Shown here in pieces: positions 8,460-52,554 of a DNA stretch of 64,000 nt. The notes under the pieces are model-generated. The model saw only the letters and a list, made by a program, of their open reading frames with translations. It made no database searches and was not told the origin of the DNA. How positions within the stretch are numbered: the first letter of the stretch is position 1; every line of letters starts with the position of its first letter. This stretch comes from Anaeromyxobacter paludicola (GTDB lineage Bacteria; Myxococcota; Myxococcia; Myxococcales; Anaeromyxobacteraceae), in NCBI RefSeq assembly GCF_023169965.1, contig NZ_AP025592.1, positions 3,596,001-3,660,000 on the forward strand, in the 5' to 3' direction. The translations under genes were made by a program, and so were the position numbers.

Positions 8460-9895
<1,436 letters not shown>

Positions 9896-9899
<4 letters not shown>

Positions 9900-11332
9900 G
9901 CCGCCACCGGGGTGGGAGCCGGGCTGGGGAGCTGCACGCGGAAGATCGAGCCGCCCGCCGGGTTGGGCGCGACGCTGATGGCGCCCCCGTGCTGCTCCAC
10001 GAGCTGCTTGCAGATGGCGAGCCCGAGCCCGGTCCCCTTCGGCTTGGTGGTGAAGAACGGGAGGAAGATCTTCTCCACGTGCTCGGGGCTGATCCCCCGC
10101 CCGGTGTCGGAGATCTCGATCTGGATGGCGCTCCCGGTGGCGGAGGTCCGGACCGAGAGCGTGCCGCCTTCGGGCATCGCGTCCACGGCGTTCAGCACGA
10201 GGTTGAGCAGCACCTGCTGGAGCTGCATCGGGTCGGCCCGCAGCTCCGGGACCGGCTGCAGGTCCCGGGTGATGGTGACCGGCGCGGCGCCGGACGACGC
10301 GCCGCCGTGGGTCTTCACGTGGAAGGCGAGGATCATGTCGATGAGGGCGTTGACGTCGAGCTCGGTGAGCTGGGGCTTCCCCGGCTTGGCGAAGTTGAGG
10401 AAGTTCTTCATCAGCGACTCGAGCCGGGCCACCTCGCGGGAGACCCCGCCCACGAGGTCGCGGTCTTCCTTGGAGAGCTCCGCCTCGTCGGCCAGCACCT
10501 GCATGGCCGCCTTGATGCCGCCGAGGGGATTCTTGATCTCGTGGGCCAGGCCCGCCGCGAGCTGGCCCACCACCACCATCTGCTCGGTCCGCTGCGTCCG
10601 GAGCATGTGCTCCTTGAGCGAGCCGGCCATGTCGTTGAAGGCCTCGGCGAGCTCCTGGAACTCGTCGGAGAGCCTCGCCACGCGGTGGTCGAGGTCGCCC
10701 CCCTTGAGCTTGCGCGTCGAGGCGAGCAGGACGCGCAGCTGCCGGGTCAGGCCGGAGATGCAGAGGTAGCCGAGCAGCGCCGCCAGCACCGGGCCGACCG
10801 CCAGGAGCGCGTAGAGGACGCGCTGCGCGTGCCGGATGGCTTCGGCCGTCCGGCGCGTCTGCCGCTCCAGGCTCACGGTCGTGACGTCGACGATGTCCCG
10901 GACCTGGCCGATGAGCTTCTCGCCGATGGGGAAGGCCGGATCGTCCACCGAGGCGAGCCCCGGCGCGCGCGCCATGCTGCGCTGCAGGGCGCCCTTGTAC
11001 AGCTCGGTCTGCGCGTTCAGCGCGTTGAGCTGCTCGGTGACCGCGGCCGAGTGGTGGCACGCGAAGCAGGAGTCGACGCGCTTGCCCAGCGCGTCCACGT
11101 CGGCGATGACCACGTCGAGGTTGCGCGAGCCCTGGGTGCTCCGGAGGAGGAAGTCGAGCTCCACCTGCTTCAAATGGAGCAGGTACTGCTCGCGCAGGAT
11201 CTCGACCTGGTGGAGGGTGATGAGGTGATTGAGATCGGTCGTCGCCGCGTCGATCCGGCGGGCGATATCGACGCCGGCCAGGAGGAAGACGAGCGTGAAT
11301 ACGCTCAATGCGACGATGATCTTGCGCTTCAA
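9896..11332 (-). CDS. Membrane histidine kinase with a c-type haem motif in its sensor domain
   Basis: A 478-residue kinase. TM1 (residues ~4-22) and TM2 (~172-195) bracket a mostly helical periplasmic domain that contains CFACHH (C89, C92, H93), a CxxCH covalent haem-binding motif. HAMP follows (~197-250), then a HisKA dimerisation helix with H264 in GLAHEIKNPLGG, and an HATPase domain (NLVLNAVDAMPEGG, DTGRGISPEHVEKIFLPFFT, GTGLGLAI). It would autophosphorylate and pass phosphate to the overlapping response regulator. The haem suggests redox or gas sensing. Translation starts at a TTG with a ggggggag site upstream. It is the first gene of the minus-strand operon and is divergent from the methyltransferase. 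Confidence 0.93.
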
Positions 11333-12386: not shown

Positions 12387-12407
12387 GCCGCGCATTCGAT
12401 GTGCGGC
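12387..12407. promoter_or_regulatory. Imperfect palindrome just upstream of the AOR sigma-54 promoter
   Basis: Arms gccgcgca and tgtgcggc around ttcga (one mismatch) end 5 bp before the -24 element. This close position suits a repressor or auxiliary site better than a classical distant NtrC enhancer. Confidence 0.35.
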
Positions 12408-23004: not shown

Positions 23005-23220
23005 TCACTTGTGCGCGCAGGAGCACGCGCCGTGCTCGTGCGGCTTCGGCGCGCTCGGCGCGGCCTGGGCGGGGGCCGCCTCCGGCCTGGCGGTCTGCCC
23101 CGTTGACTGGTTGCCGGACTTCTGGAGACGCCAGGCGTTCCGCTCCTCCCAGCTCGGCCCGGCGAACGCGGGGGTCACCATCATCGCGAGAGCCGCGGCG
23201 GCCACGATCTTCTTCAGCAT
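23005..23220 (-). CDS. Small secreted HEH/CxC protein A
   Basis: A 71-residue exported protein: signal peptide MLKKIVAAAALAMMVTPAFA, a Trp/Arg then Pro/Ala-rich middle, and the tail KPHEHGACSCAHK. The closely placed His and Cys residues suggest metal binding. I start at the second of two nearby Met codons (23220), which is 7 nt from ggagg; the first (23226) is too close. A sigma-54 promoter on this strand is at 23287. The divergent protein B at 23605 has a similar build and tail, so they form a pair. Family not recognised. Confidence 0.7.
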   Translation of the reverse strand: MLKKIVAAAALAMMVTPAFAGPSWEERNAWRLQKSGNQSTGQTARPEAAPAQAAPSAPKPHEHGACSCAHK

Positions 23221-23271
23221 GATCATTCCTCCGTCGGAGAGTTGGGCTTCGATTCCGACGCGAGGAGGCGC

Positions 23272-23287
23272 TGCATCCTGGGTGCCA
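23272..23287 (-). promoter_or_regulatory. Sigma-54 promoter for small secreted protein A
   Basis: Read on the minus strand: TGGCACC, CAGG, ATGCA, with correct GG-GC spacing (first T of TTGC is A). The predicted start is near 23262, about 40 nt before the ATG at 23220. Confidence 0.6.
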
Positions 23288-23535
23288 GCCGCTCGAGGCC
23301 TCGAAATGCTCAGGATGGCGCGGCGGGGCCCGCTGGCGGAGGCACCGCGGCGGTTCCGGTGTAACCCGCGATCTCACGGTCGCGGGGTCCATCGAACCGC
23401 GCCCGACCGGTGGCGCTCGTCGCCAGCGGGGGGTAACTCGCCGGGAGACATCGGCACCCGGCGCGTCACGCTTCCGCGCCCGCCGGACGAAGCCCGAACG
23501 CCGGCGAACCGCTGCGTTCAGCAGTGAGCGTCGGC

Positions 23536-23551
23536 TGGCACTCGCGCTGCA
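23536..23551 (+). promoter_or_regulatory. Sigma-54 promoter for small secreted protein B
   Basis: TGGCACT, CGCG, CTGCA with correct spacing of the GG and GC pairs (two deviations from consensus outside these). The predicted start is near 23562, about 43 nt before the ATG at 23605. Confidence 0.6.
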
Positions 23552-23604
23552 AAGTGATCCGGGGACGGCATCGAGCCGTTCCACCATCCACGGAGGTCGT
23601 TCCC

Positions 23605-23862
23605 ATGTCCCGGATCCTCAACACCACCCTCGCCGCCCTGCTCGTCGCCTCGGCCACGCCCGCGCTCGCGGCGGACCTGCCGCCCTTCGCCGGCAACTTC
23701 GACGATGCGCAGTACGGCTACGCCAACGACCCGGCCACGCCCGCCGCGGCGCCCCGCGGCGCCACCCTCGCCGCCTCGAGCAAGGACCGCGAGGCGAGCG
23801 CGACCCCGAAGCACGAGCACCGCGCCGGCTCGATGAAGAGCGACTGCACGTGCCACGGCTGA
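23605..23862 (+). CDS. Small secreted HEH/CxC protein B
   Basis: An 85-residue exported protein: signal peptide MSRILNTTLAALLVASATPA (cleavage after ALA), a short acidic/aromatic stretch (FAGNFDDAQYGY), a Pro/Ala linker, and the tail PKHEHRAGSMKSDCTCHG. The HEH...CxCxH ending mirrors protein A on the other strand (23005), but the middles differ. The ribosome site is ggaggt. Possible roles are metal buffering or haem/metal delivery in the periplasm; neither is shown by the sequence. Confidence 0.7.
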   Translation: MSRILNTTLAALLVASATPALAADLPPFAGNFDDAQYGYANDPATPAAAPRGATLAASSKDREASATPKHEHRAGSMKSDCTCHG

Positions 23863-40641: not shown

Positions 40642-43368
40642 GTGAGCGGATTCTTCGATTATTGGGGGAAGGCCGGAGCGGAAGGCGAGGGGCGGGTTCA
40701 CCTGCTCCCCTTCCACGGGTTCGACGTCGCCGCTGTCGGCGCCGAGATCCTCGATCGGGATACGGCCCTGTTGCCGCGAATGGCCCACCTCTCGGGCTTC
40801 CGAGCAGAGGACCTCCGCTCGGCGATCCCCTTCGTCCTCGCGCTGCACGACCTCGGTAAGTTCGCAGAGCCCTTCCAGGATCTGATGCCTGATCTTGTGC
40901 GAGAGCTGCAAGGCCCGCGGGCGGCGCGCGTGTGCGCCGTTCACCATTCGAGCCTCGGGTACCAGCTCTGGCGGAGCTGGGCCACGCTGCGACCCGCACC
41001 CGACGAGGCGCAACTCCTCTGCCAGCTGCACCAGGTCGAGCTCGCTGGGGGCGCTCGTGGCCACAGGGACTTGGGCGACCTGATGCAGCCCTGGATGGCC
41101 GCGGTCCTGGGTCACCACGGCAAGCCGCCGGAAGAGGGCACGCTCGGCCCCGGGATCCTGCAGGCGCACCCGGCTTACCGGAGCCGCCGAGACGCAACGG
41201 CCTTCGCGCTGGCAGCGAGGAAGTTGCTCGCGCCCGCACCCCTGCGCGGCTCGGAGCCGGATTTCGAGAAGCAGCTCCAGCGGATGCGCCGCTCTTCTTG
41301 GTGGCTCGCCGGCTTCGCCATCCTCTGCGACTGGATCGGCTCCGACACCGACTTCTTCCAGCCGCAGCGGACCGAGATGGACCTGGCCGAGTACTGGCAG
41401 CGCGCCAGGACCTCGGCCGCGCGCGCGGTCGAGCACAGCGGGCTGGGCCGAAGCACGCCTCGGGCGTATGCGGGCGTGGAGCACCTCTTCCCGCAGATCG
41501 CCGCGAGTCCAAGTCCGTTGCAGGGGGCGGCGGCCACCATAGAGATCGGCGATGGCCCGCAGTTCTACGTTCTCGAGGACCTGACCGGTTCCGGGAAGAC
41601 GGAGGCCGCGCTCATTCTCGCCCACCGGCTCCTCGACGCCGGCCGAAGCGACGGGATCTTCTTCGCCCTGCCGACCATGGCGACCGCCAACGCGATGCAC
41701 CGCCGGGTCGAGCCGCTCCTGAACAAGCTCTTCAAGGGGGAGCCGTCCTATCTCCTCACCCACAGCGGCCCTCGCCTGACCTGCAAGGATCGGATCGCGC
41801 TCGGTCAGCGCTCGGCAGACGACGCGGCGGGCGAGGAAGAGGCGGCCGCGACCGCCAGCGCCTGGCTCGCGGACGGGAGAAAGAAGGCGCTGTTGGCCGA
41901 GCTGGGCGTAGGCACCATCGACCAGGCGCTGCTCGCCGCTCTCCAGAGCAAGCACGCCGCGTTCCGGCTCCTGGGATTGCACCGGCACGTGCTCGTCGTG
42001 GACGAGGTCCACGCCTGCGACGTCTACATGCTCCGGGTGCTCTGCGGATTGCTCCGCGCACACGCGGGGCTCGGCGGGAGTGCCATACTCCTCAGCGCCA
42101 CGCTTCCGCTCGAGCAGCGGAGGCAACTCGCCCGGGCGTTCGCCGAAGGTGCCGGTGCGCACGGGGCGGAGTTGCCGACCAGCGAGGAGTATCCGCTGCT
42201 CACCGCCTGGTCCGGGGATCGGGTGCAGGAGCGGGCCGTGGCGGCGCGGAACGGCGCGCCGCGCACGCTCCCGATCGTGTTCCGCCGCTCGGTCGCGGAG
42301 GTCGTCGCGCGGCTCACCGAAGCGGCCCGGGCCGGGCGGTGCGCCTGCTGGGTGAGGAACAGCGTGGCGGACGCAGTGGAGGCGCGCGACCTCCTGGCCG
42401 CGATCCTGGGCGAAGACGCGGTCACCCTGTTCCACGCGCGCTTCGCCCTCGGGGACCGCCTTCGAATCGAGGACGCCGTCTTGGCCAGGTTCGGGACCGG
42501 CGGCGAGGCCGCCCAGCGGTGCGGCCGGGTCGTGATCGCGACGCAGGTGATCGAGCAGTCGCTCGACGTCGACTTCGACGTGCTCGTGTCGGATCTCTGT
42601 CCCATCGACCGGCTGATCCAGCGGGCGGGCAGGCTCCAGCGCCACGCCCGAGCGGACCTCGACCGGGATCCGCCGGCCCTCGAGGTCCTCGCCCCGCCCT
42701 GGTCCGAAGACCCGTCTGCGGGCTGGCTCTCGGCTCCGTTCCAGCGCACTGCGGTGGTCTACCCCGACCCCGCGGTCCTCTGGCGCACGCTGCGCGAGCT
42801 CAAGAATCGCCAACAGTTCGCACTGCCCGGCGAGGCGCGCGCCCTGGTCGAGGCGGTGTTCGGATCCGACGAAACGCCTGCGGCGCTGATGCCCAGATCC
42901 GGCCAGGCCGTGGGGAAGCAGCTTTCCCAGGCTTCAGTCGCACAAGGGGCGGTCCTGTGCCTCGACCTCGGGTACCTGCGTCAGGGGATGGACTGGTCGA
43001 GCGAGGCCCACACGCCCACCCGCCTCGGGGAGCCGACCGTGACCGTGCGCCTCGCCCGGGCCGAAGCGGCCGCGCCCTGGCTCGATGGCGTGGCGCGACA
43101 TCTCCAGTGGCCCTTGAGCCAGTTGAGCGTCACACGGCGGCTCGTCGCGCGTCCATCTCCGGATGAAGCCGACCTCGTTGCGCAGCTCGAGCGGACCCAG
43201 CCGTTCGTGGGCGATGACATCGTGACGGTGCCGCTGCGGCTTCAGGGGGATGGCACCTGGACAGGACGCGCGGTGGCCGAGAGAGGCCCGCCCGAGAACC
43301 CCCGCGAAGTCCCCGTCCAGATCCTCTACTCGCCCGTTCGCGGGCTGTCGGTCATCCAAGGAGCGTGA
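40642..43368 (+). CDS. cas3: Cas3 HD nuclease-helicase, type I-E
   Basis: A 908-residue CRISPR interference effector that unwinds and degrades DNA marked by Cascade. The N-terminal HD nuclease shows H25 (LLPFHGFD) and H69-D70 (ALHDLGKF), plus VHHSSLGYQ. Helicase motifs follow: Walker A GSGKTEA (~316-322), DEVH (454-457 in VVDEVHACD), LLSATLP, and QVIEQSLDVDFDVLVSD with QRAGRLQRH (motif VI). I start at GTG 40642 (aagggggg site) since the longer ATG frame adds 18 poorly conserved residues. It is first in the cas operon; Cas8e starts 4 bp after. Confidence 0.96.
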   Translation: MSGFFDYWGKAGAEGEGRVHLLPFHGFDVAAVGAEILDRDTALLPRMAHLSGFRAEDLRSAIPFVLALHDLGKFAEPFQDLMPDLVRELQGPRAARVCAVHHSSLGYQLWRSWATLRPAPDEAQLLCQLHQVELAGGARGHRDLGDLMQPWMAAVLGHHGKPPEEGTLGPGILQAHPAYRSRRDATAFALAARKLLAPAPLRGSEPDFEKQLQRMRRSSWWLAGFAILCDWIGSDTDFFQPQRTEMDLAEYWQRARTSAARAVEHSGLGRSTPRAYAGVEHLFPQIAASPSPLQGAAATIEIGDGPQFYVLEDLTGSGKTEAALILAHRLLDAGRSDGIFFALPTMATANAMHRRVEPLLNKLFKGEPSYLLTHSGPRLTCKDRIALGQRSADDAAGEEEAAATASAWLADGRKKALLAELGVGTIDQALLAALQSKHAAFRLLGLHRHVLVVDEVHACDVYMLRVLCGLLRAHAGLGGSAILLSATLPLEQRRQLARAFAEGAGAHGAELPTSEEYPLLTAWSGDRVQERAVAARNGAPRTLPIVFRRSVAEVVARLTEAARAGRCACWVRNSVADAVEARDLLAAILGEDAVTLFHARFALGDRLRIEDAVLARFGTGGEAAQRCGRVVIATQVIEQSLDVDFDVLVSDLCPIDRLIQRAGRLQRHARADLDRDPPALEVLAPPWSEDPSAGWLSAPFQRTAVVYPDPAVLWRTLRELKNRQQFALPGEARALVEAVFGSDETPAALMPRSGQAVGKQLSQASVAQGAVLCLDLGYLRQGMDWSSEAHTPTRLGEPTVTVRLARAEAAAPWLDGVARHLQWPLSQLSVTRRLVARPSPDEADLVAQLERTQPFVGDDIVTVPLRLQGDGTWTGRAVAERGPPENPREVPVQILYSPVRGLSVIQGA

Positions 43369-43372
43369 GCAC

Positions 43373-44998
43373 GTGGCCTACAACCTGATCGACGAGCGCT
43401 GGATCCCCGTGCTCCGTCGCAGCGGCAAGGTGGAGATGATCTCGCCCGCCCAGGTGGTCGAGAGGGAGGACCCTCCGCTCCGCATCGCCAGCCCTCGGCC
43501 GGACTTCGATGGGGCGCTCCTCGAGTTTCTCATCGGCCTCTTGCAGACCGCGGGCGCGCCAGCGACCGAGCGCGAATGGGAAGACGCGCTCGAGAGCCCG
43601 CCCGGCGTGGGCCAGCTCAAGAGCAGGCTGGACGCCGTCCGGGGGGCGTTCTTCCTCGACGGGGACGGGCCGAGATTCATGCAGGATCTTACTGTCGCGC
43701 AAGACCCCCGGGTCGCTCGGCTCCCTATCGGCGCGCTCCTCATCGACAGGATCGGAGAGGAAGGGCTCAGCGACTCCCCGACGCTCTTCGCCAAGCCAGG
43801 CTTGTTCGACTCCCTGAGCCTTCCAGCAGCTGCGGCCAGCCTCATGGCGCTACAGACCTACGCCCCGGCGGGCGGAAGGGGGCAGTTCACCTCGCTGCGA
43901 GGGGGCGGCCCTCTCACGACGCTGATACTCGGGGAGACCCTCTGGGCGACAGCGTGGCTCAACGTGCTGCCGAGGCGCGAGTTCGAGGCTCGTGTTCCGG
44001 GAGATGCGACGCTCACGTCGGACGCGGCCATCTTCCCTTGGATGGAGAAGACGCGCCGGGGCGATACGCCGCCGAGCAGCGTTCATCCCCTTCAGCACTT
44101 GTGGGGACTGCCACGCCGCTGCCGCCTGGAGATCGCCCAGTCGGACGAGGAGCCATGCGCCGTCTACGGCGCACAGGCCGGCCCGGCAGTCCGAGGCTAC
44201 GTCGGCCGGCCAGAGGGGATGAGTTACGACGGGGACTACCGCCATCCGTGGACGCCGTACTCCTACAGTAAGCCGGGCGAGCCCTGGAATCCGAAGAAGG
44301 GAAGCGCCGACGGTCTGCCGTACCGCGACTGGCCCCTGCTCGTCACTGGGAGCGAGAAGCGCCGTCCGGCAACAGTCGTCAGCTACTTCGCCTCGACTCA
44401 CCGTCGCGCGTTACTCGGCGGCGTCGCGCGACTCGTGGCGTTCGGATACGCGATGGACAACATGAAGCCGCTGCGCTGGTGCCGAGCAGAGACCCCGCTC
44501 GTCACCGTCGATGAGCAGCTCGCGCCAATGTTCTCCGGGCAGGTGGAGAAACTCGTTGAGGCGAGCGAGGAGGTCCGGAAGACCCTGGCGGCGCAGGTGC
44601 GCGCCGCCCTGAGCGATCGACCGGCGGACCTCGACGTCTTCGACCAGGTGAACCCGGCCTTCTGGTCCGCCACCGAACCTGCCTTCTTCCGGACGGTACA
44701 TGCGGTCAAGGCGGAGCTCGAGGCGGGGAAGACTGCCGACGAGCCGAAACAGGCCTGGCTGTCGAGCTTGCACGACTCCGCCCTCGCCCTGTTTGACCGC
44801 TTCACCGGCTCCTCGGCGGACCTCGCGGCTCCCGACCTTCGGCGGGTCGTGCTTGCCCGGCACAGCCTGATCCACTTCACGAGCCCGGACGCGACGAAGC
44901 TGCGAAAGCTGCTCGGGCTCTCCACCCCGAACGAACCTACCCCGAAGGCGCCGCGCGGGAAGAGCGCGAGCCGTCGCCCCACCCAGGAGAGCGTCTGA
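43373..44998 (+). CDS. cas8e: Cas8e (Cse1/CasA), Cascade large subunit
   Basis: A 541-residue protein that recognises the PAM and recruits Cas3 in type I-E. The start AYNLIDERWIPVLRRSGK is the Cse1 signature; later FFLDGDGPRFMQD, and WNPKKGSADGLPYRDWPLLV fit the family. The GTG at 43373 follows the aaggag site near the cas3 stop; the longer frame lies inside cas3 and is rejected. Its stop overlaps the cse2 ATG by one base. Confidence 0.95.
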   Translation: MAYNLIDERWIPVLRRSGKVEMISPAQVVEREDPPLRIASPRPDFDGALLEFLIGLLQTAGAPATEREWEDALESPPGVGQLKSRLDAVRGAFFLDGDGPRFMQDLTVAQDPRVARLPIGALLIDRIGEEGLSDSPTLFAKPGLFDSLSLPAAAASLMALQTYAPAGGRGQFTSLRGGGPLTTLILGETLWATAWLNVLPRREFEARVPGDATLTSDAAIFPWMEKTRRGDTPPSSVHPLQHLWGLPRRCRLEIAQSDEEPCAVYGAQAGPAVRGYVGRPEGMSYDGDYRHPWTPYSYSKPGEPWNPKKGSADGLPYRDWPLLVTGSEKRRPATVVSYFASTHRRALLGGVARLVAFGYAMDNMKPLRWCRAETPLVTVDEQLAPMFSGQVEKLVEASEEVRKTLAAQVRAALSDRPADLDVFDQVNPAFWSATEPAFFRTVHAVKAELEAGKTADEPKQAWLSSLHDSALALFDRFTGSSADLAAPDLRRVVLARHSLIHFTSPDATKLRKLLGLSTPNEPTPKAPRGKSASRRPTQESV

Positions 44999-45510
44999 TG
45001 AGTGAACAGCAGGCTGCATCTACACCCGAGGAGCAGCGCTCGACCCTCTGGCGGTGGTGGAAGTCCCTCGACGAGGACCGCGCCGGACGCGCCGAGCTGC
45101 GGCGCTGCGGCACCCCGGCTGAAGTGGCATTCGCGCCCGCCTACCACGCACTGCTGCGCCGCCTCGGCTCGCGCCTCGGCGAGGACGACGCGCGCCGGGT
45201 GGCAGCCGTGGCCGCGATCCTGGCGCACGTGGAACGAGAGCCGACCCAGGAGGTCTCGCTGGCTCGCCAGATGGGAACCCCCAAGGCCGAGGGGCAAGGG
45301 CCGGTGATCGGCGACAGCCACTTCCGCCACATCCTGCGCGAGGAGGATCCGGAGGTGATCATGCGTGAGGTCATCCGGGTGGTCCGCCAGCTCGACCGGT
45401 GTGCCGCGGTCGACCGGCTCTTCAAGGACCTCATGAGCTGGAACGAGCGCACCCGAGTCCGCTGGGCGCAGGACTTCTATGAGGCCGCGCCGCTGACCGA
45501 GAAGAAGTGA
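44998..45510 (+). CDS. cse2: Cse2/CasB (Cas11), Cascade small subunit
   Basis: A 170-residue helical small subunit that lines the Cascade belly and stabilises the R-loop. LWRWWKSLDEDRAGRAELRR and FRHILREEDPEVIMREVIRV are typical Cse2 blocks. It is translationally coupled to cas8e (TGATG) and 42 bp before cas7e. Confidence 0.93.
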   Translation: MSEQQAASTPEEQRSTLWRWWKSLDEDRAGRAELRRCGTPAEVAFAPAYHALLRRLGSRLGEDDARRVAAVAAILAHVEREPTQEVSLARQMGTPKAEGQGPVIGDSHFRHILREEDPEVIMREVIRVVRQLDRCAAVDRLFKDLMSWNERTRVRWAQDFYEAAPLTEKK

Positions 45511-45552
45511 CCCCAACACCGCCCTCTCAACCGCCCTGAACCGGAGACACAC

Positions 45553-46590
45553 ATGCCCACCACCTTCGTCCAGCTCCACTTCCTCACCCCCTACGCGCCG
45601 TCCAACCTGAACCGCGACGACCTCGGCCGGCCCAAGACCGCGCTGTTCGGCGGCAGCCAGCGGCTCCGTGTGAGCTCGCAGAGCCTCAAGCGCGCCTGGC
45701 GCACCTCCGATGCGTTTGCGGCGGAGCTGTCCGAGCATCTCGGCATCCGCACCAAGCGGTTCGGGGAGCTGGTGCTTCCGGTCCTCACGAGGGGGCTCGG
45801 CGAGAAGCAGGCCTCCAAGGTGGCGAGCCAGCTCGCCGAAGTGTTTGGCGCGGTGAAGGATTCGGGGCTCCGCACCGAGCAGCTCGCCCACATCAGCCCG
45901 GACGAGAAGAGGGAGCTCGAGTCGCTCGCCGCGAAGTTGGCCGAGGAGAAGCGCGCGCCGACCGAGGAGGAGCTGGAAGGGTTGCTCGGGCTGAGCGGAG
46001 GCGCCGCCGACATCGCGCTCTTCGGCCGGATGCTCGCTGCCAAGGCCAAGTTCAACGTCGAGGCGGCTTGCCAGGTCGCGCACGCCCTCTCGATCCACAA
46101 GGTCGCGCTGGAGGACGACTACTTCACAGCGGTGGACGACCTCAAGGGCGCGGAGGAGGACGCCGGCGCGGGCCACGTGGGCACGCAGGAGTTCGCCTCG
46201 GCGGTGCTGTACCACTACGTCTGCATCGACAGGAACCTCCTCTCCGAGAATTTCGGGGGCGACGAGGCGCTGGTCACGCGGACGCTGCGCGCGCTCGGCG
46301 AGGCGTGCCTCACGGTGGCGCCGAATGGGAAGCAGAACAGCTTCGCCGCGCGCTCGCGGGCGCACTTCGCTCTTGCGGAGAAGGGGCCCGCCCAGCCGCG
46401 CTCTCTGGCCTCCGCCTTCCTCCGGCCGGTCACGGGTGACGACCTGCTCGCTTCCGGCGTGGCGGCCCTGCAGCAGACGCGGGCGCAGCTCGATCGCGTC
46501 TACGGTGACGCGGCGAGCTCCTGCTCCTTCGACGTCGCGGCGGGTGAGGGCACCAAGTCCGCGCTGCTCGACTTCCTGTCGACCCCCTGA
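45553..46590 (+). CDS. cas7e: Cas7e (Cse4/CasC), Cascade backbone
   Basis: A 345-residue RAMP protein forming the crRNA-binding backbone of Cascade. The N-terminus FVQLHFLTPYAPSNLNRDDL, FGGSQRLRVSSQSLKRAWR and IDRNLLSENFGGDEAL are the Cas7e hallmarks. The ATG has an accggaga site. Cas5e starts 3 bp after its stop. Confidence 0.95.
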   Translation: MPTTFVQLHFLTPYAPSNLNRDDLGRPKTALFGGSQRLRVSSQSLKRAWRTSDAFAAELSEHLGIRTKRFGELVLPVLTRGLGEKQASKVASQLAEVFGAVKDSGLRTEQLAHISPDEKRELESLAAKLAEEKRAPTEEELEGLLGLSGGAADIALFGRMLAAKAKFNVEAACQVAHALSIHKVALEDDYFTAVDDLKGAEEDAGAGHVGTQEFASAVLYHYVCIDRNLLSENFGGDEALVTRTLRALGEACLTVAPNGKQNSFAARSRAHFALAEKGPAQPRSLASAFLRPVTGDDLLASGVAALQQTRAQLDRVYGDAASSCSFDVAAGEGTKSALLDFLSTP

Positions 46591-46593
46591 GCC

Positions 46594-47400
46594 ATGCCAT
46601 CGTTCCTCTGTTTCCGCCTGCACGGGCCGCTCGCCTCCTGGGGAGAGATCGCCGTTGGCGAGCGACGCCCATCCGCGCCGCACCCCTCCCGGTCCGCCGT
46701 GCTCGGGATATTGGCGGCGGCGCTCGGGGTGCGCCGAGATGACTCGGACGCCTGGGGATCCCTCGACGCGGGGATCGGCTTCGCGTCCCGGACCGAGGCG
46801 CCGGGCCAGTTGCTCGTCGACTTCCACACCGCCCAGGGGCCCGGCGAGAAGCTGCTCCGGGCCGATGAGCGAGAGGCCAGGAAGCGAAAGGCCCCGTGGC
46901 ACCGCCCCGCCACGAGGAAGGAAGAGCTCGCCTTCGCCCGCGCCGACCTCGACACGTTGCTGAGCAGTCGCCAGTACCGGCTGGATGCGCTCTGGACGGT
47001 GGCCCTCTGGGCGAAGGAGGGCGCTGCGCTACCCTGGTCGATCGACGCGATGAGGGATGCTTTGCGCCGCCCGACGTTCGTCCCGTACCTGGGTCGGAAG
47101 AGCTGCCCGCTCGACGTACCTCTGGAGCCGCAAGTCGTGGAGGCGCCGGATCCGGTGACTGCGATCGCCTCGGCCGGGTTCGGGACGGACGAGCTGCTGG
47201 CTATGGTGATCGCCGGCGGGCGCGGAAGCGCCACGGTGCAGTGGGAGGGCGCCTGGCCGGGCCTCGCCCCTGAGCAGACGGTCCGGCGCCGTGACCGGGT
47301 GCTGAGCAGGAGCCGCTGGCAGTTCACGGAGCGGGAGGAGCACCAGAAGGCGTGGAGCGCCGCGCCCGAGAAAGGAAATCATGTTCCTGAGCAGGGTTGA
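46594..47400 (+). CDS. cas5e: Cas5e (CasD)
   Basis: A 268-residue RAMP protein that caps the 5' handle of the crRNA. FRLHGPLASWGEIAVGERRP then SRSAVLGILAAALGVRRDD is the Cas5e start. No ribosome site of its own is obvious; it is probably translated by coupling from cas7e. It overlaps cas6e by 20 nt. Confidence 0.94.
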   Translation: MPSFLCFRLHGPLASWGEIAVGERRPSAPHPSRSAVLGILAAALGVRRDDSDAWGSLDAGIGFASRTEAPGQLLVDFHTAQGPGEKLLRADEREARKRKAPWHRPATRKEELAFARADLDTLLSSRQYRLDALWTVALWAKEGAALPWSIDAMRDALRRPTFVPYLGRKSCPLDVPLEPQVVEAPDPVTAIASAGFGTDELLAMVIAGGRGSATVQWEGAWPGLAPEQTVRRRDRVLSRSRWQFTEREEHQKAWSAAPEKGNHVPEQG

Positions 47401-48118
47401 GCTGGACGCGCGCGCGGCGGAGCACGAGGAGTTCTGGCGCGAGGTGTCGAGTCCCTACGGCTCGCACCAGGCTATTTGGAAGCTCTTGTCGCGCTCGGCC
47501 GATCAGAAGCGGGACTTCCTCTACCGGGCCGAGGAGTCCTCGCGGCAGCCCACCTTCCTCGTCCTCTCGGCCGCGCCCCCCGCCGCCCACGGGAACGGGA
47601 TGTGGCGGGTCGAGTCGAAGGAGTTCGCACCTGCGCTGAAGGAAGGGCAGCGGCTCGCGTTCAGGCTCCGAGCGAGCCCGGTAGTGCGCAGAGGCAAGCG
47701 CGTTCCGGAGAGGAAGAACCGGAAGGTCCAACGGCACGACGTGGTCATGGATCTCGCCAAGCGCCTCGAGTCCGAGGGGCGACCGGTCCCGCCGGAGCCG
47801 GTGCTGGTTGGCGAAGCGGGCACCGCTTGGCTGATCTCCCAGGGCGAGCGCGCCGGGTTCAAGCTCGCCACGACGACCATCGAGGAGCTCGCGGACGATG
47901 GGCTTTTCGAGAACCGCGAGCGGCCCTCCCTGCGGGTCGGCGGGTACCGGCAGCACCGGATCCTGCGACGCGGCGAGCAGCCGGTTCGCTTCAGCACCCT
48001 CGACTTCGAAGGTGTACTGGAAGTGACCAATCCGGCAGCGTTCCTCGCGAGAGTGGCCCAAGGGTTCGGACCCCAGAAGGCCTTCGGCTGCGGGTTGATG
48101 CTGCTCCGGAGGGCGTGA
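47381..48118 (+). CDS. cas6e: Cas6e (CasE) crRNA endonuclease
   Basis: A 245-residue RAMP nuclease that cuts the repeat hairpin of the pre-crRNA and stays bound. The start FLSRVELDARAAEHEEFWRE, SPYGSHQAIWKLL with the candidate catalytic histidine, KRDFLYRAEE, and the glycine-rich end QGFGPQKAFGCGLMLL are family features. The ATG has an aaagga site inside cas5e. cas1 starts at the base after its stop. Confidence 0.94.
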   Translation: MFLSRVELDARAAEHEEFWREVSSPYGSHQAIWKLLSRSADQKRDFLYRAEESSRQPTFLVLSAAPPAAHGNGMWRVESKEFAPALKEGQRLAFRLRASPVVRRGKRVPERKNRKVQRHDVVMDLAKRLESEGRPVPPEPVLVGEAGTAWLISQGERAGFKLATTTIEELADDGLFENRERPSLRVGGYRQHRILRRGEQPVRFSTLDFEGVLEVTNPAAFLARVAQGFGPQKAFGCGLMLLRRA

Positions 48119-49337
<1,219 letters not shown>

Positions 49338-49414
49338 ACGTCCGTCACCGAAATGCTTCGGTGAGCTAGCTCTTTGACATCAAACCCATACAATGACGTG
49401 ACTTTTGACGAAGT
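49338..49414 (+). promoter_or_regulatory. CRISPR leader
   Basis: A 77-bp stretch between cas2 and the first repeat, AT-richer than its surroundings (ctctttgacatc, ccatacaatgacg). It contains a perfect small hairpin caccgaa-atgc-ttcggtg (49346-49363) just after the cas2 stop. The intact repeats at this end and the degenerate repeat at the far end confirm the leader side. Confidence 0.75.
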
Positions 49415-51455
49415 CCGTTCCCCGCGCACGCGGGGATGAGCCGCGCCGGGTCGCGCGCGGCGTCTGCCCCTGCTGCCGTTCCCCGCGCACGCGGGGATGA
49501 GCCGGCAGCGGCGGCAGTCGCAGCCGGGAACGGGCTCCGTTCCCCGCGCACGCGGGGATGAGCCGGCGCTGAACGACTCGCGCGGTGAACACCCGCGCCG
49601 TTCCCCGCGCACGCGGGGATGAGCCGTGAGGCCCTGAGCCGTGACCCCCGGCACCCCCCCGTTCCCCGCGCACGCGGGGATGAGCCGGCTGGAACCCAGA
49701 CCGTCTGGCACGAGCGGGACCGTTCCCCGCGCACGCGGGGATGAGCCGCCCTCCTGCCGTCCCGGCCAGCGGCGAGGGCACCGTTCCCCGCGCACGCGGG
49801 GATGAGCCGCGCATCACGATCAACGGGCCGGGCACGCTGCGCCGTTCCCCGCGCACGCGGGGATGAGCCGGTGGCTGGAAGCCTCTGGGCGGGTAACGCG
49901 GCCCGTTCCCCGCGCACGCGGGGATGAGCCGTACCGGCCGAGCTCGGAGCGGAACATGGTCACCCGTTCCCCGCGCACGCGGGGATGAGCCGGCGGTCTT
50001 GGAGCCGGTGACATCGATCACCAGCCGTTCCCCGCGCACGCGGGGATGAGCCGCTCTCCGGGACCGGCCTCGGCGACGAGATGATCCGTTCCCCGCGCAC
50101 GCGGGGATGAGCCGGTCGGCAACAGCGTGTGCCCGCCGATCGCCGCCCGTTCCCCGCGCACGCGGGGATGAGCCGTTCGGGGCGACCGTCACGCAGTAGC
50201 TACCGGCCCGTTCCCCGCGCACGCGGGGATGAGCCGCTGGAGGGCGAGGCGGGTAGGGCGATGCGCGACCGTTCCCCGCGCACGCGGGGATGAGCCGCTG
50301 GAGGGCGAGGCGGGTAGGGCGATGCGCGACCGTTCCCCGCGCACGCGGGGATGAGCCGCTGGCCGCGACCACTAGCCGTGTTTTTCGGCCCCGTTCCCCG
50401 CGCACGCGGGGATGAGCCGCAGAAGAGCAGCCCGAGCCGCTCGGCCGAGCGCCGTTCCCCGCGCACGCGGGGATGAGCCGTCACCAGGGCGCCGCGCCCG
50501 GACGCGCCGGCCCCGTTCCCCGCGCACGCGGGGATGAGCCGGGAGACGGAGCGATCCGCGAAGCCAGGGGTGACCGTTCCCCGCGCACGCGGGGATGAGC
50601 CGAGGATGCTCTCGATGGCCTGCGCGCTCGCGCGCCGTTCCCCGCGCACGCGGGGATGAGCCGCGCGGGAAGATCAAGCAGAAGGCCGGGACCGACCGTT
50701 CCCCGCGCACGCGGGGATGAGCCGAGCCGCCGCTTCGTGAGAGCCGCCCTCGACGGCCGTTCCCCGCGCACGCGGGGATGAGCCGATCGACGGGACGAAC
50801 GCTCAGATCCACATCACCCGTTCCCCGCGCACGCGGGGATGAGCCGACCCCCGCCGAGTCGAAGACGCTGCCGCGCTGCCGTTCCCCGCGCACGCGGGGA
50901 TGAGCCGCACTACCGGGCCGTGCAGTCCGCCCCGGCTGACCGTTCCCCGCGCACGCGGGGATGAGCCGTCGTTCACCGCCGGACTCGCGGGCGTGGCCTC
51001 CCGTTCCCCGCGCACGCGGGGATGAGCCGGTCAAGCTGCACCGCACGATCTCGCGGCCCTCCCGTTCCCCGCGCACGCGGGGATGAGCCGACGTTCTCCG
51101 CCGGACTCTCCGGGCGCGGCCCGTTCCCCGCGCACGCGGGGATGAGCCGCTGTCGCGGTACGCGGCGTGGCCCGTGCCGCGCCGTTCCCCGCGCACGCGG
51201 GGATGAGCCGGTGATCTCGGGCGCGCTCAAGTCGAAGGTCCGCCGTTCCCCGCGCACGCGGGGATGAGCCGGTGTGCCGCACGTTCACGTTCTCGCCGGA
51301 CCGCCGTTCCCCGCGCACGCGGGGATGAGCCGCGAATTGCGCTATGCAGCGCGCGGCACGGCTCCCGTTCCCCGCGCACGCGGGGATGAGCCGGTGAGAT
51401 TGGCGGTGGCGAGCTCCGCCCGCCGACCGTTCCCCGCGTACCCAGGGATGGCCCG
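49415..51455 (+). CRISPR. Type I-E CRISPR array, 33 intact repeats plus a degenerate terminal repeat
   Basis: Repeats of 29 bases (start ccgttccccgcgcacg, end gatgagccg; internal palindrome ccccgcg/cgcgggg) recur every 61 bases, so spacers are 32 bases. I counted repeats at 49415, 49476 and so on to 51365, all apparently identical, then a decayed copy at 51427-51455 (ccgcgtacccagggatggcc replaces the centre). There are 33 spacers. Exceptions: spacer 28 (51091-51120) is 30 bases, and the last (51394-51426) is 33. Spacers 14 and 15 are identical; spacers 26 and 28 are similar. The repeat is a close relative of the E. coli type I-E repeat. Confidence 0.99.
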
Positions 51456-51602
51456 GCGCTGCGCACTCGACCATAGCCATGGACCTCGCGGGAGGCTCTG
51501 GCCGGGTCCGGCCACGCGGGTACAGTCGAAGACCCAGTTGCCTGCGCAGCTGGCCGGCGCTCCGCACTCTTGTAATTGCAGACGCGCTGCAGCCCGCTGC
51601 GA

Positions 51603-51630
51603 AAAGGTTGCCCAGAAGGTTGCCCAGAAA
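51603..51630. repeat. Tandem aaggttgccc repeat, copy 2
   Basis: aaaggttgcccag and aaggttgcccag in tandem, 44 bp from the 3' end of tRNA-Gly; matches the pair at 25247-25273. The remaining sequence from 51456 to 51673 has no gene that I can support. Confidence 0.5.
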
Positions 51631-51673
51631 CGACAAGGGGTCCCGCTTTGGCAGCGGAACCCCTTGATATTCT

Positions 51674-51749
51674 TGGAGCGGGAAACGGGATTCGAACCCG
51701 CGACCCTCAGCTTGGGAAGCTGATGCTCTACCAACTGAGCTATTCCCGC
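51674..51749 (-). tRNA. tRNA-Gly (anticodon CCC)
   Basis: Minus-strand cloverleaf: acceptor gcgggaa/ttcccgc, D-arm agctcagttggtagagc, anticodon stem-loop with loop TTCCCAA (anticodon CCC, reads GGG), T-arm with ggttcgaatcc, and an encoded CCA end (complement of 51674-51676). Its 3' end faces the CRISPR array, the side on which integrative elements usually insert. Confidence 0.95.
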
Positions 51750-51864
51750 GCGACGGCTCCCTTTCTGCCGTGAACGACCCCCGGAGTCAAGGAAGAGCGC
51801 GCGCCCCGCGAGGGCGCGGCGCGGGAGCCGCTGCGGCGGCCCGGGAGGGCGTTAGAGTCGGGGC

Positions 51865-52554
51865 ATGGACGAGTCCGAGCTCCGCCGGCTGGAGGCCTCG
51901 CGCGCCGCGCTCCTGGCCCGCTTCGCCGAGAAGATGCGCGCCACCCCGTCGCTCGCCGACCCGGCGCCGAAGGGCGAGGGGCCGCGCAACGCTCACGGGA
52001 TGCCGAGGATGCCGGTGCAGCAGGGCGAGCAGGACGAGCTCATCCCGATGGACCTGGGCCGGGTGCCGGCGGTGGCGATGGACCGCTGGAAGCTCACCGT
52101 GGACGGAGCGGTCGAGGCGCCGGTGACGCTCGGCTTCGAAGACCTCCTCGCCCTCCCGCAGGAGGACCGCACCGCCGACTTCCACTGCGTCACCGGCTGG
52201 AGCGTGCTGGGGCTCTCCTGGCGCGGCGTGCCGGTCTCGACGCTGCTCGCGCTCGCCCGCCCCACCGCCGAGGCGACGCACGCGATGTTCCACTCCCACG
52301 ACGGCTACTCCACCAACCTCCCGCTCGAGGAGGCGCTCAAGGACGACGTCCTCCTCGTCCACGCGCTCGGCGGCGCGCCGCTCACGGCGGAGCTCGGCGG
52401 CCCGGCGCGCGTGATCACGCCGCAGCTCTACGCCTACAAGGGCGCGAAGTGGGTGAACCGGATCGAGCTCCTCACCCAGGACCGGCGCGGCTACTGGGAG
52501 ATCCGCGGCTACTCCAACACCGCGTACCCCTGGCGCAACGATCGGGAGTGGTGA
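51865..52554 (+). CDS. Sulfite-oxidase-fold molybdopterin-binding protein
   Basis: A 229-residue protein with the oxidoreductase molybdopterin-binding (SUOX/MsrP) fold: WKLTVDGAVEAPVTLGFEDL, DFHCVTGWSVLGLSWRGVPV (the cysteine that can ligate Mo), HSHDGYSTNLPLEEAL, and RVITPQLYAYKGAKWVNRIE. No signal peptide, so it appears cytoplasmic, unlike MsrP. It would use molybdopterin from moaA/moeA products. The ribosome site is weak. Substrate unknown. Confidence 0.9.
   Translation: MDESELRRLEASRAALLARFAEKMRATPSLADPAPKGEGPRNAHGMPRMPVQQGEQDELIPMDLGRVPAVAMDRWKLTVDGAVEAPVTLGFEDLLALPQEDRTADFHCVTGWSVLGLSWRGVPVSTLLALARPTAEATHAMFHSHDGYSTNLPLEEALKDDVLLVHALGGAPLTAELGGPARVITPQLYAYKGAKWVNRIELLTQDRRGYWEIRGYSNTAYPWRNDREW

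Follow-up and report, generated by a model that had tools for sequence, protein, structure and literature searches.

Two very short open reading frames face away from each other across an intergenic region in the 64-kb stretch of soil myxobacterial DNA analyzed here (the window), and the question that they raise is what such small proteins do and with which genes they are switched on. The initial annotation had read them as a divergent pair of tiny secreted proteins with HEH...CxCxH tails, each behind a sigma-54 promoter, and had placed them in the regulon of the nearby AOR (aldehyde oxidoreductase-type)/cytochrome genes, perhaps as metal or haem carriers.

A divergent pair of small exported proteins

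The minus-strand frame, P0001 (23005-23226), encodes 73 amino acids arranged as a signal peptide, a disordered-looking middle, and the tail KPHEHGACSCAHK, found by tail-pattern match and encoded at 23008-23046 (-). The plus-strand frame, P0002 (23605-23862), encodes 85 amino acids, with a signal peptide, a DLPPFAGNFDDAQYG motif, and the C-terminal end PKHEHRAGSMKSDCTCHG, closing in DCTCHG; its tail, KHEHRAGSMKSDCTCHG, is encoded at 23809-23859 (+). Both frames look like real genes of a GC-rich genome because of their strong coding bias, with GC fractions by codon position of 0.63/0.59/0.96 for P0001 and 0.66/0.61/0.99 for P0002. A Shine-Dalgarno GGAGG precedes the start in each, and both N termini, read by eye, resemble signal peptides. 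The second ATG of P0001, at 23220 (MLKK...), has the better GGAGG spacing and may be the true start. Disorder-promoting residues account for 76% of the mature chain of P0001 and 62% of that of P0002; both are probably disordered. Together, the translations, third-position GC, signal peptides, and Shine-Dalgarno sequences confirm the tailed, divergent pair as first described.

Searches of Pfam and NCBIfam returned no match above cut-off for either protein, to SilE/PcoE-type families or any other, which agrees with the earlier statement that no described family was known. P0001 scored 14.8 bits (E 0.045) against the NCBIfam model BRANT_His_rich (NF047414), whose curated cut-off is 44 bits. A degenerate HEH..CxC.H pattern has three matches in the 4.59-Mb host genome, namely, P0001, P0002, and one more. 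Across 24 genomes, its matches mostly look like chance; one in G009 that at first seemed promising was dropped as out of frame.

The family set comprised these 24 genomes, including the complete host genome; the family includes Anaeromyxobacter. P0002 homologues align end to end in G022, G013, G019, G003, and G016, and further paralogues occur in G020, G008, and G022. In the alignment of P0002 with five Anaeromyxobacter homologues, residues D24, L25, P26, P27, A29, G30, D33, D34, Y37, and G38 are invariant, as are C81 and C83, which form the C-terminal CxC, and a signal peptide is kept ahead of the DLPPxAG..DD..YG core. In the aligned proteins, the C-terminal CxC reads CTCHG, CKCRS, CTCCKA, CACTR, and CACMR, and paralogues end in ..ASCSCGR and ..CGCAHGCAHHG. 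Of the proposed tail pattern, then, the CxC is conserved among P0002 homologues and the HEH is not. P0002 has both defining features of its family, the signal peptide with DLPPxAG..DD..YG and the C-terminal CxC; P0001 has a CxC tail and lacks the DLPP core, and under this definition it is therefore not a member.

Outside the family, a P0002 profile matched nothing at E <= 0.01 among the 145 genomes searched in the order, and nothing at E <= 1e-4 among 195 in the phylum. For P0001, the search of relatives gave weak, compositional matches and no convincing homologue. Small exported CxC proteins whose kinship is unclear are encoded in G020 (L218), G007 (L177), and G002 (L159). Some relatives lack cysteine, such as one in G008 (L075), and repeated DD..Y[GP] units occur in Cys-free relatives at L138:5732-6154, at L139:5804-6358, and in L137 (A. 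oryzae, A. terrae). One of these lies behind its own sigma-54 element (L137, at 6773), with an NtrC-type regulator close by. The function of the DD..Y repeat may be separate from that of the CxC tail.

CxC pairs can act as disulfides, and the tail might on that account be a redox (disulfide-exchange) device that guards envelope thiols under copper stress instead of a metal ligand. The middles of the proteins hold no other obvious metal ligands, as would suit such a device. However, neither protein has a thioredoxin-like domain in Pfam or NCBIfam, and the histidines next to the CxC in the pair, like the CGCAHGCAHHG end of a relative, fit metal binding better. We regard a redox function as very unlikely and read the tails as predicted metal ligands.

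Promoters and operator-like sites

Good -24/-12 elements, located by pattern search and element scoring, face outward at both genes: TGGCACCCAGGATGCA at 23272-23287 (-) for P0001 and TGGCACTCGCGCTGCA at 23536-23551 (+) for P0002. The pattern TGGCAC-N6-TGC occurs four times in 64 kb, where 0.55 would be expected and where 0 of 100 shuffles reached four; the positions are 12412 (AOR operon), 19577 (porin/cytochrome), 23273-23287 (-), and 23536-23550 (+). The looser YGGCAC-N6-YGCA was not enriched genome-wide (41 matches versus 78 for the reversed control), so a lone match proves little, and the regulon was delimited on more than promoter matches. The element is also conserved ahead of the P0002 homologues. 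The outward sigma-54 promoters of the initial annotation are thus borne out, and these predicted elements support sigma-54 control of both genes.

A candidate operator, GTGACCG-N5-RTCACAGYGTGACC, lies upstream of the sigma-54 elements of P0002 homologues and of the Cus operon of G008. Its general form is of the GTGAC-N8-TCACA type, about 60-85 bp from the sigma-54 promoters. A degenerate version of the pattern gave 150 matches in the 24 genomes versus 10 for the reversed control, and a sigma-54 element scoring at least 14 was found near 79% of 39 strong sites versus 1.7% of shuffles. Genes found downstream of strong sites encode cupredoxins, CusCBA, copper ATPases, and an orthologous sigma-54 two-component system. 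The host genome itself has a 29.2-bit site before a cupredoxin adjoining CusA (L215) and a 21.2-bit site before a copper ATPase (L133).

Because the first operator model had been built from P0002-homologue and Cus promoters, the motif model was trained anew with 47 sites drawn from many other loci, all outside the window, and the window, kept out of training throughout, then served as the test. With the retrained model, the region between P0001 and P0002 holds ranks 1, 3, and 4 of the 64 kb; Markov shuffles of this region reached the top score in 1 of 400 cases and the two-site sum in 0 of 400. The best match (23350-23379, -; 9.8 bits, rank 1) lies about 63 bp upstream of the -24 element of P0001. 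The second (23442-23471, -; 6.3 bits, rank 4), with near-palindromic GTAAC...GTCAC, lies about 66 bp upstream of that of P0002; the first model had placed it second and third. Both spacings resemble those in much of the remaining regulon. An inverted repeat noted earlier at 23365-23386 does exist, but since it overlaps one of the two copies (23350-23379), it is better described as an operator-like site. The sites are weak, at 6-10 bits with the retrained model compared with the 18-35 bits at which known sites were selected with an earlier model. Upstream of each gene there is, then, an operator-like site, albeit weak, together with a sigma-54 element, as in a regulon of the CorSR kind discussed below.

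The window also offers a regulator closer at hand. Beside the AOR cluster, at 8460-11332 (-), lies a two-component system. The sensor region of its histidine kinase carries a haem-type CxxCH motif (CFACHHS), and its regulator (8460-9899) is of NtrC type. If this local haem-type system activated all four sigma-54 promoters, the small proteins could be metal or haem carriers for the AOR/cytochrome genes. The four sigma-54-like elements do fall within 12 kb, all at promoters, and the genes concerned all fall in the 8-24 kb part of the window. However, none of the other 23 family genomes has a match to the kinase at E <= 1e-60, though several of them carry P0002 homologues with sigma-54 promoters, and the operators of the small genes do not recur at the AOR and porin promoter regions, which rank 32 and 199 in the window with the retrained model. 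The local regulator is 41% identical to the copper-linked regulator described below but just 23% identical over the last 60 residues. Control by the local system was dropped because of the missing kinase and operators, and membership in an AOR/cytochrome regulon, left unsupported by these data, seems to us unlikely. The proposed metal or haem carriage fared unevenly; the conserved C-terminal CxC and the copper-gene neighbors make metal-binding tails likely, while haem carriage found no support.

Upstream of the AOR sigma-54 element, GCGCATTCGATGTGC at 12390-12404 is one mismatch from the Myxococcus xanthus NmpR consensus, GCGCA-N5-TGCGC (PMC11841059); a match as good occurs in 7 of 245 windows of 260 bp. 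NmpR-type sites between the small genes were rejected, the best match there having three mismatches.

Copper neighborhoods and a candidate regulator

Copper genes, assigned by Pfam and NCBIfam and comprising P-type ATPases, cupredoxins, or a Cus-type efflux operon, adjoin most P0002 homologues. The homologue lies upstream of a copper ATPase in G016 (L083), faces one in G013 (L080), and in A. oryzae (L079) diverges from genes for a cupredoxin-like protein, an HMA-type ATPase, and a CsoR-type repressor. A paralogue in G008 (L136) sits between a sigma-54 two-component system and genes for a cupredoxin, CusC, CusB, and CusA. No copper gene adjoins the homologue in L135 (G020). Among small exported open reading frames, 8 of 17 near operators have a CxC, compared with 8 of 260, an enrichment that is partly circular because many of the loci were fetched via P0002 homologues. 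Members of a further family of small exported proteins, with KDHQ/E-AAWDA repeats, adjoin P0002 homologues or operators at L083:7769-8104, L082:7112-7444, and L230:5188-5511. An unexpected target was also seen directly behind strong operators, where MacB/FtsX-like permeases are paired with ATPases (ABC) at L218:4327-6233, L221:6757-8691, and L222:4173-6107.

The response regulator encoded beside the G008 paralogue has an orthologue in nearly all family genomes. In the host it is G000:C1:4352827-4354194, 71% identical to the G008 regulator (next best, 51%), with a kinase gene alongside; the host genome thus encodes a sigma-54 response regulator together with a kinase bearing HAMP and a periplasmic sensor. 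The kinase sensor domain is conserved (RDQYAHQAHTIIIGD.SHLGFY). No operator was found before the host's own copy of this two-component system.

CorSR of M. xanthus (curA operon) is described as a copper-linked two-component system whose sigma-54-dependent regulator controls, among others, a His-rich cupredoxin (PF13473) and the YHS-type copper ATPase CopA (PMC3707914). Compared by description, the Anaeromyxobacter two-component system is likewise copper-linked and of sigma-54 type, and CorSR, as excerpted from that report, appears to be the nearest described system. It differs in that the same excerpt describes no CxC-tailed small proteins in the CorSR regulon; nor does it describe a CorR binding site.

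Were the regulon instead to answer zinc, cadmium, lead, or envelope stress, the small proteins might be chaperone-like accessories in the manner of ZraP, a small periplasmic metal-binding accessory protein under the sigma-54 two-component system ZraSR. The score of the regulator against ZraR is good, although it falls far short of the cut-off; substrates vary among CusA/CzcA-type pumps, and CxC also binds Zn and Cd. The general design, a small periplasmic accessory under sigma-54 two-component control, is shared as well; however, sequence similarity to ZraP/ZraSR is undetectable, and in Anaeromyxobacter the neighbors differ and the targets are of copper type (TIGR01511 ATPases above cut-off, cupredoxins, and a CusB-like adaptor with a heavy-metal-binding domain). 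Against another metal also stands the similar myxobacterial CorSR, which is copper-induced in the excerpted description (PMC3707914). We consider such a role improbable and favor copper.

Proposed role among periplasmic metal-binding proteins

From the coding bias, export signals, promoters, operator-like sites, CxC of the P0002 homologues, and copper-gene neighbors, all of which can be read in the sequences themselves, we propose that P0001 and P0002 are probably small, likely disordered, exported proteins of a copper-responsive (possibly copper/silver-responsive), CorSR-like sigma-54 regulon that bind metal via their CxC/His tails. Their cysteine/histidine tails and apparent co-switching with copper export argue for periplasmic metal sponges, probably, rather than AOR/cytochrome helpers. 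Excess periplasmic copper (or silver) would activate the CorSR-like kinase; its NtrC-type partner would then bind the GTGAC-N8-TCACA-type operators and open sigma-54 promoters some 60-85 bp away, yielding P1B ATPases, cupredoxins, CusCBA, and the small proteins. The latter, exported and flexible, would bind Cu(I)/Ag(I) by the C-terminal CxC, with added histidines in the P0001/P0002 pair, and once loaded might either buffer the metal until efflux or hand it to efflux. Here we infer the identity of the metal, its binding, the induction, the regulator that binds, and the sponge role. The proposal is weakest at the low-scoring operators of the host and at P0001, which stands without homologues, and in its inferred induction and binding.

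Two kinds of described proteins come close in role. SilE is a disordered metal sponge (PMC5008109), and, like SilE/PcoE, P0001 and P0002 would be small exported proteins made alongside Cus/Sil-type efflux and a P-type ATPase. The resemblance appears to be one of role, since the Pfam/NCBIfam search and the description of SilE set the two apart: SilE binds by His/Met motifs, whereas P0001 and P0002 would bind by a predicted C-terminal CxC and under sigma-54 control. The bufferins (Buf1/Buf2) share Sec-dependent export, cysteine content, and a setting of copper stress (PMC12452194), so that the small proteins might be MNIO-modified copper peptides of this kind. Yet bufferins carry four or six conserved cysteines and come with the MNIO enzyme, while P0001 and P0002 have just two cysteines, both C-terminal, and PF05114 is matched nowhere in the host genome although two control genomes were matched. 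That identity was rejected as extremely unlikely, and a metal sponge with a CxC tail is the reading that we retain.

A broader and more tentative suggestion, on which we would not insist, is that small and otherwise unrelated exported scaffolds of the family (DD..YG, P0001, and those from G007, G020, and G002) bear a short CxC "metal hook," C-terminal or C-proximal, that many or all of them answer to one sigma-54 copper regulator, and that they are rapidly evolving periplasmic Cu(I)/Ag(I) sponges. Such a set would fill the role held elsewhere by SilE, CusF, or bufferins. Periplasmic copper buffering is itself known; new would be a lineage-restricted, Cys-tailed protein set, which, if the proposal is right, adds a Cys-tail solution to such buffering. 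These tiny exported proteins, whose family has no name, thereby gain a testable role. The literature searched described no sigma-54 copper regulon in Anaeromyxobacter, and here the operator, promoter type, and target set of one are defined family-wide from sequence alone. The locus also suggests that adjacency to an AOR/cytochrome cluster, even with a common sigma-54 promoter type, need not mean membership in the same regulon. Farther along the window, at 40642-51865, lies a CRISPR-Cas-like operon with Cas3-, Cse1-, Cas7-, and Cas1-like products, type I-E by eye, and the 2.5-kb gene-poor stretch that follows it is probably a repeat array.
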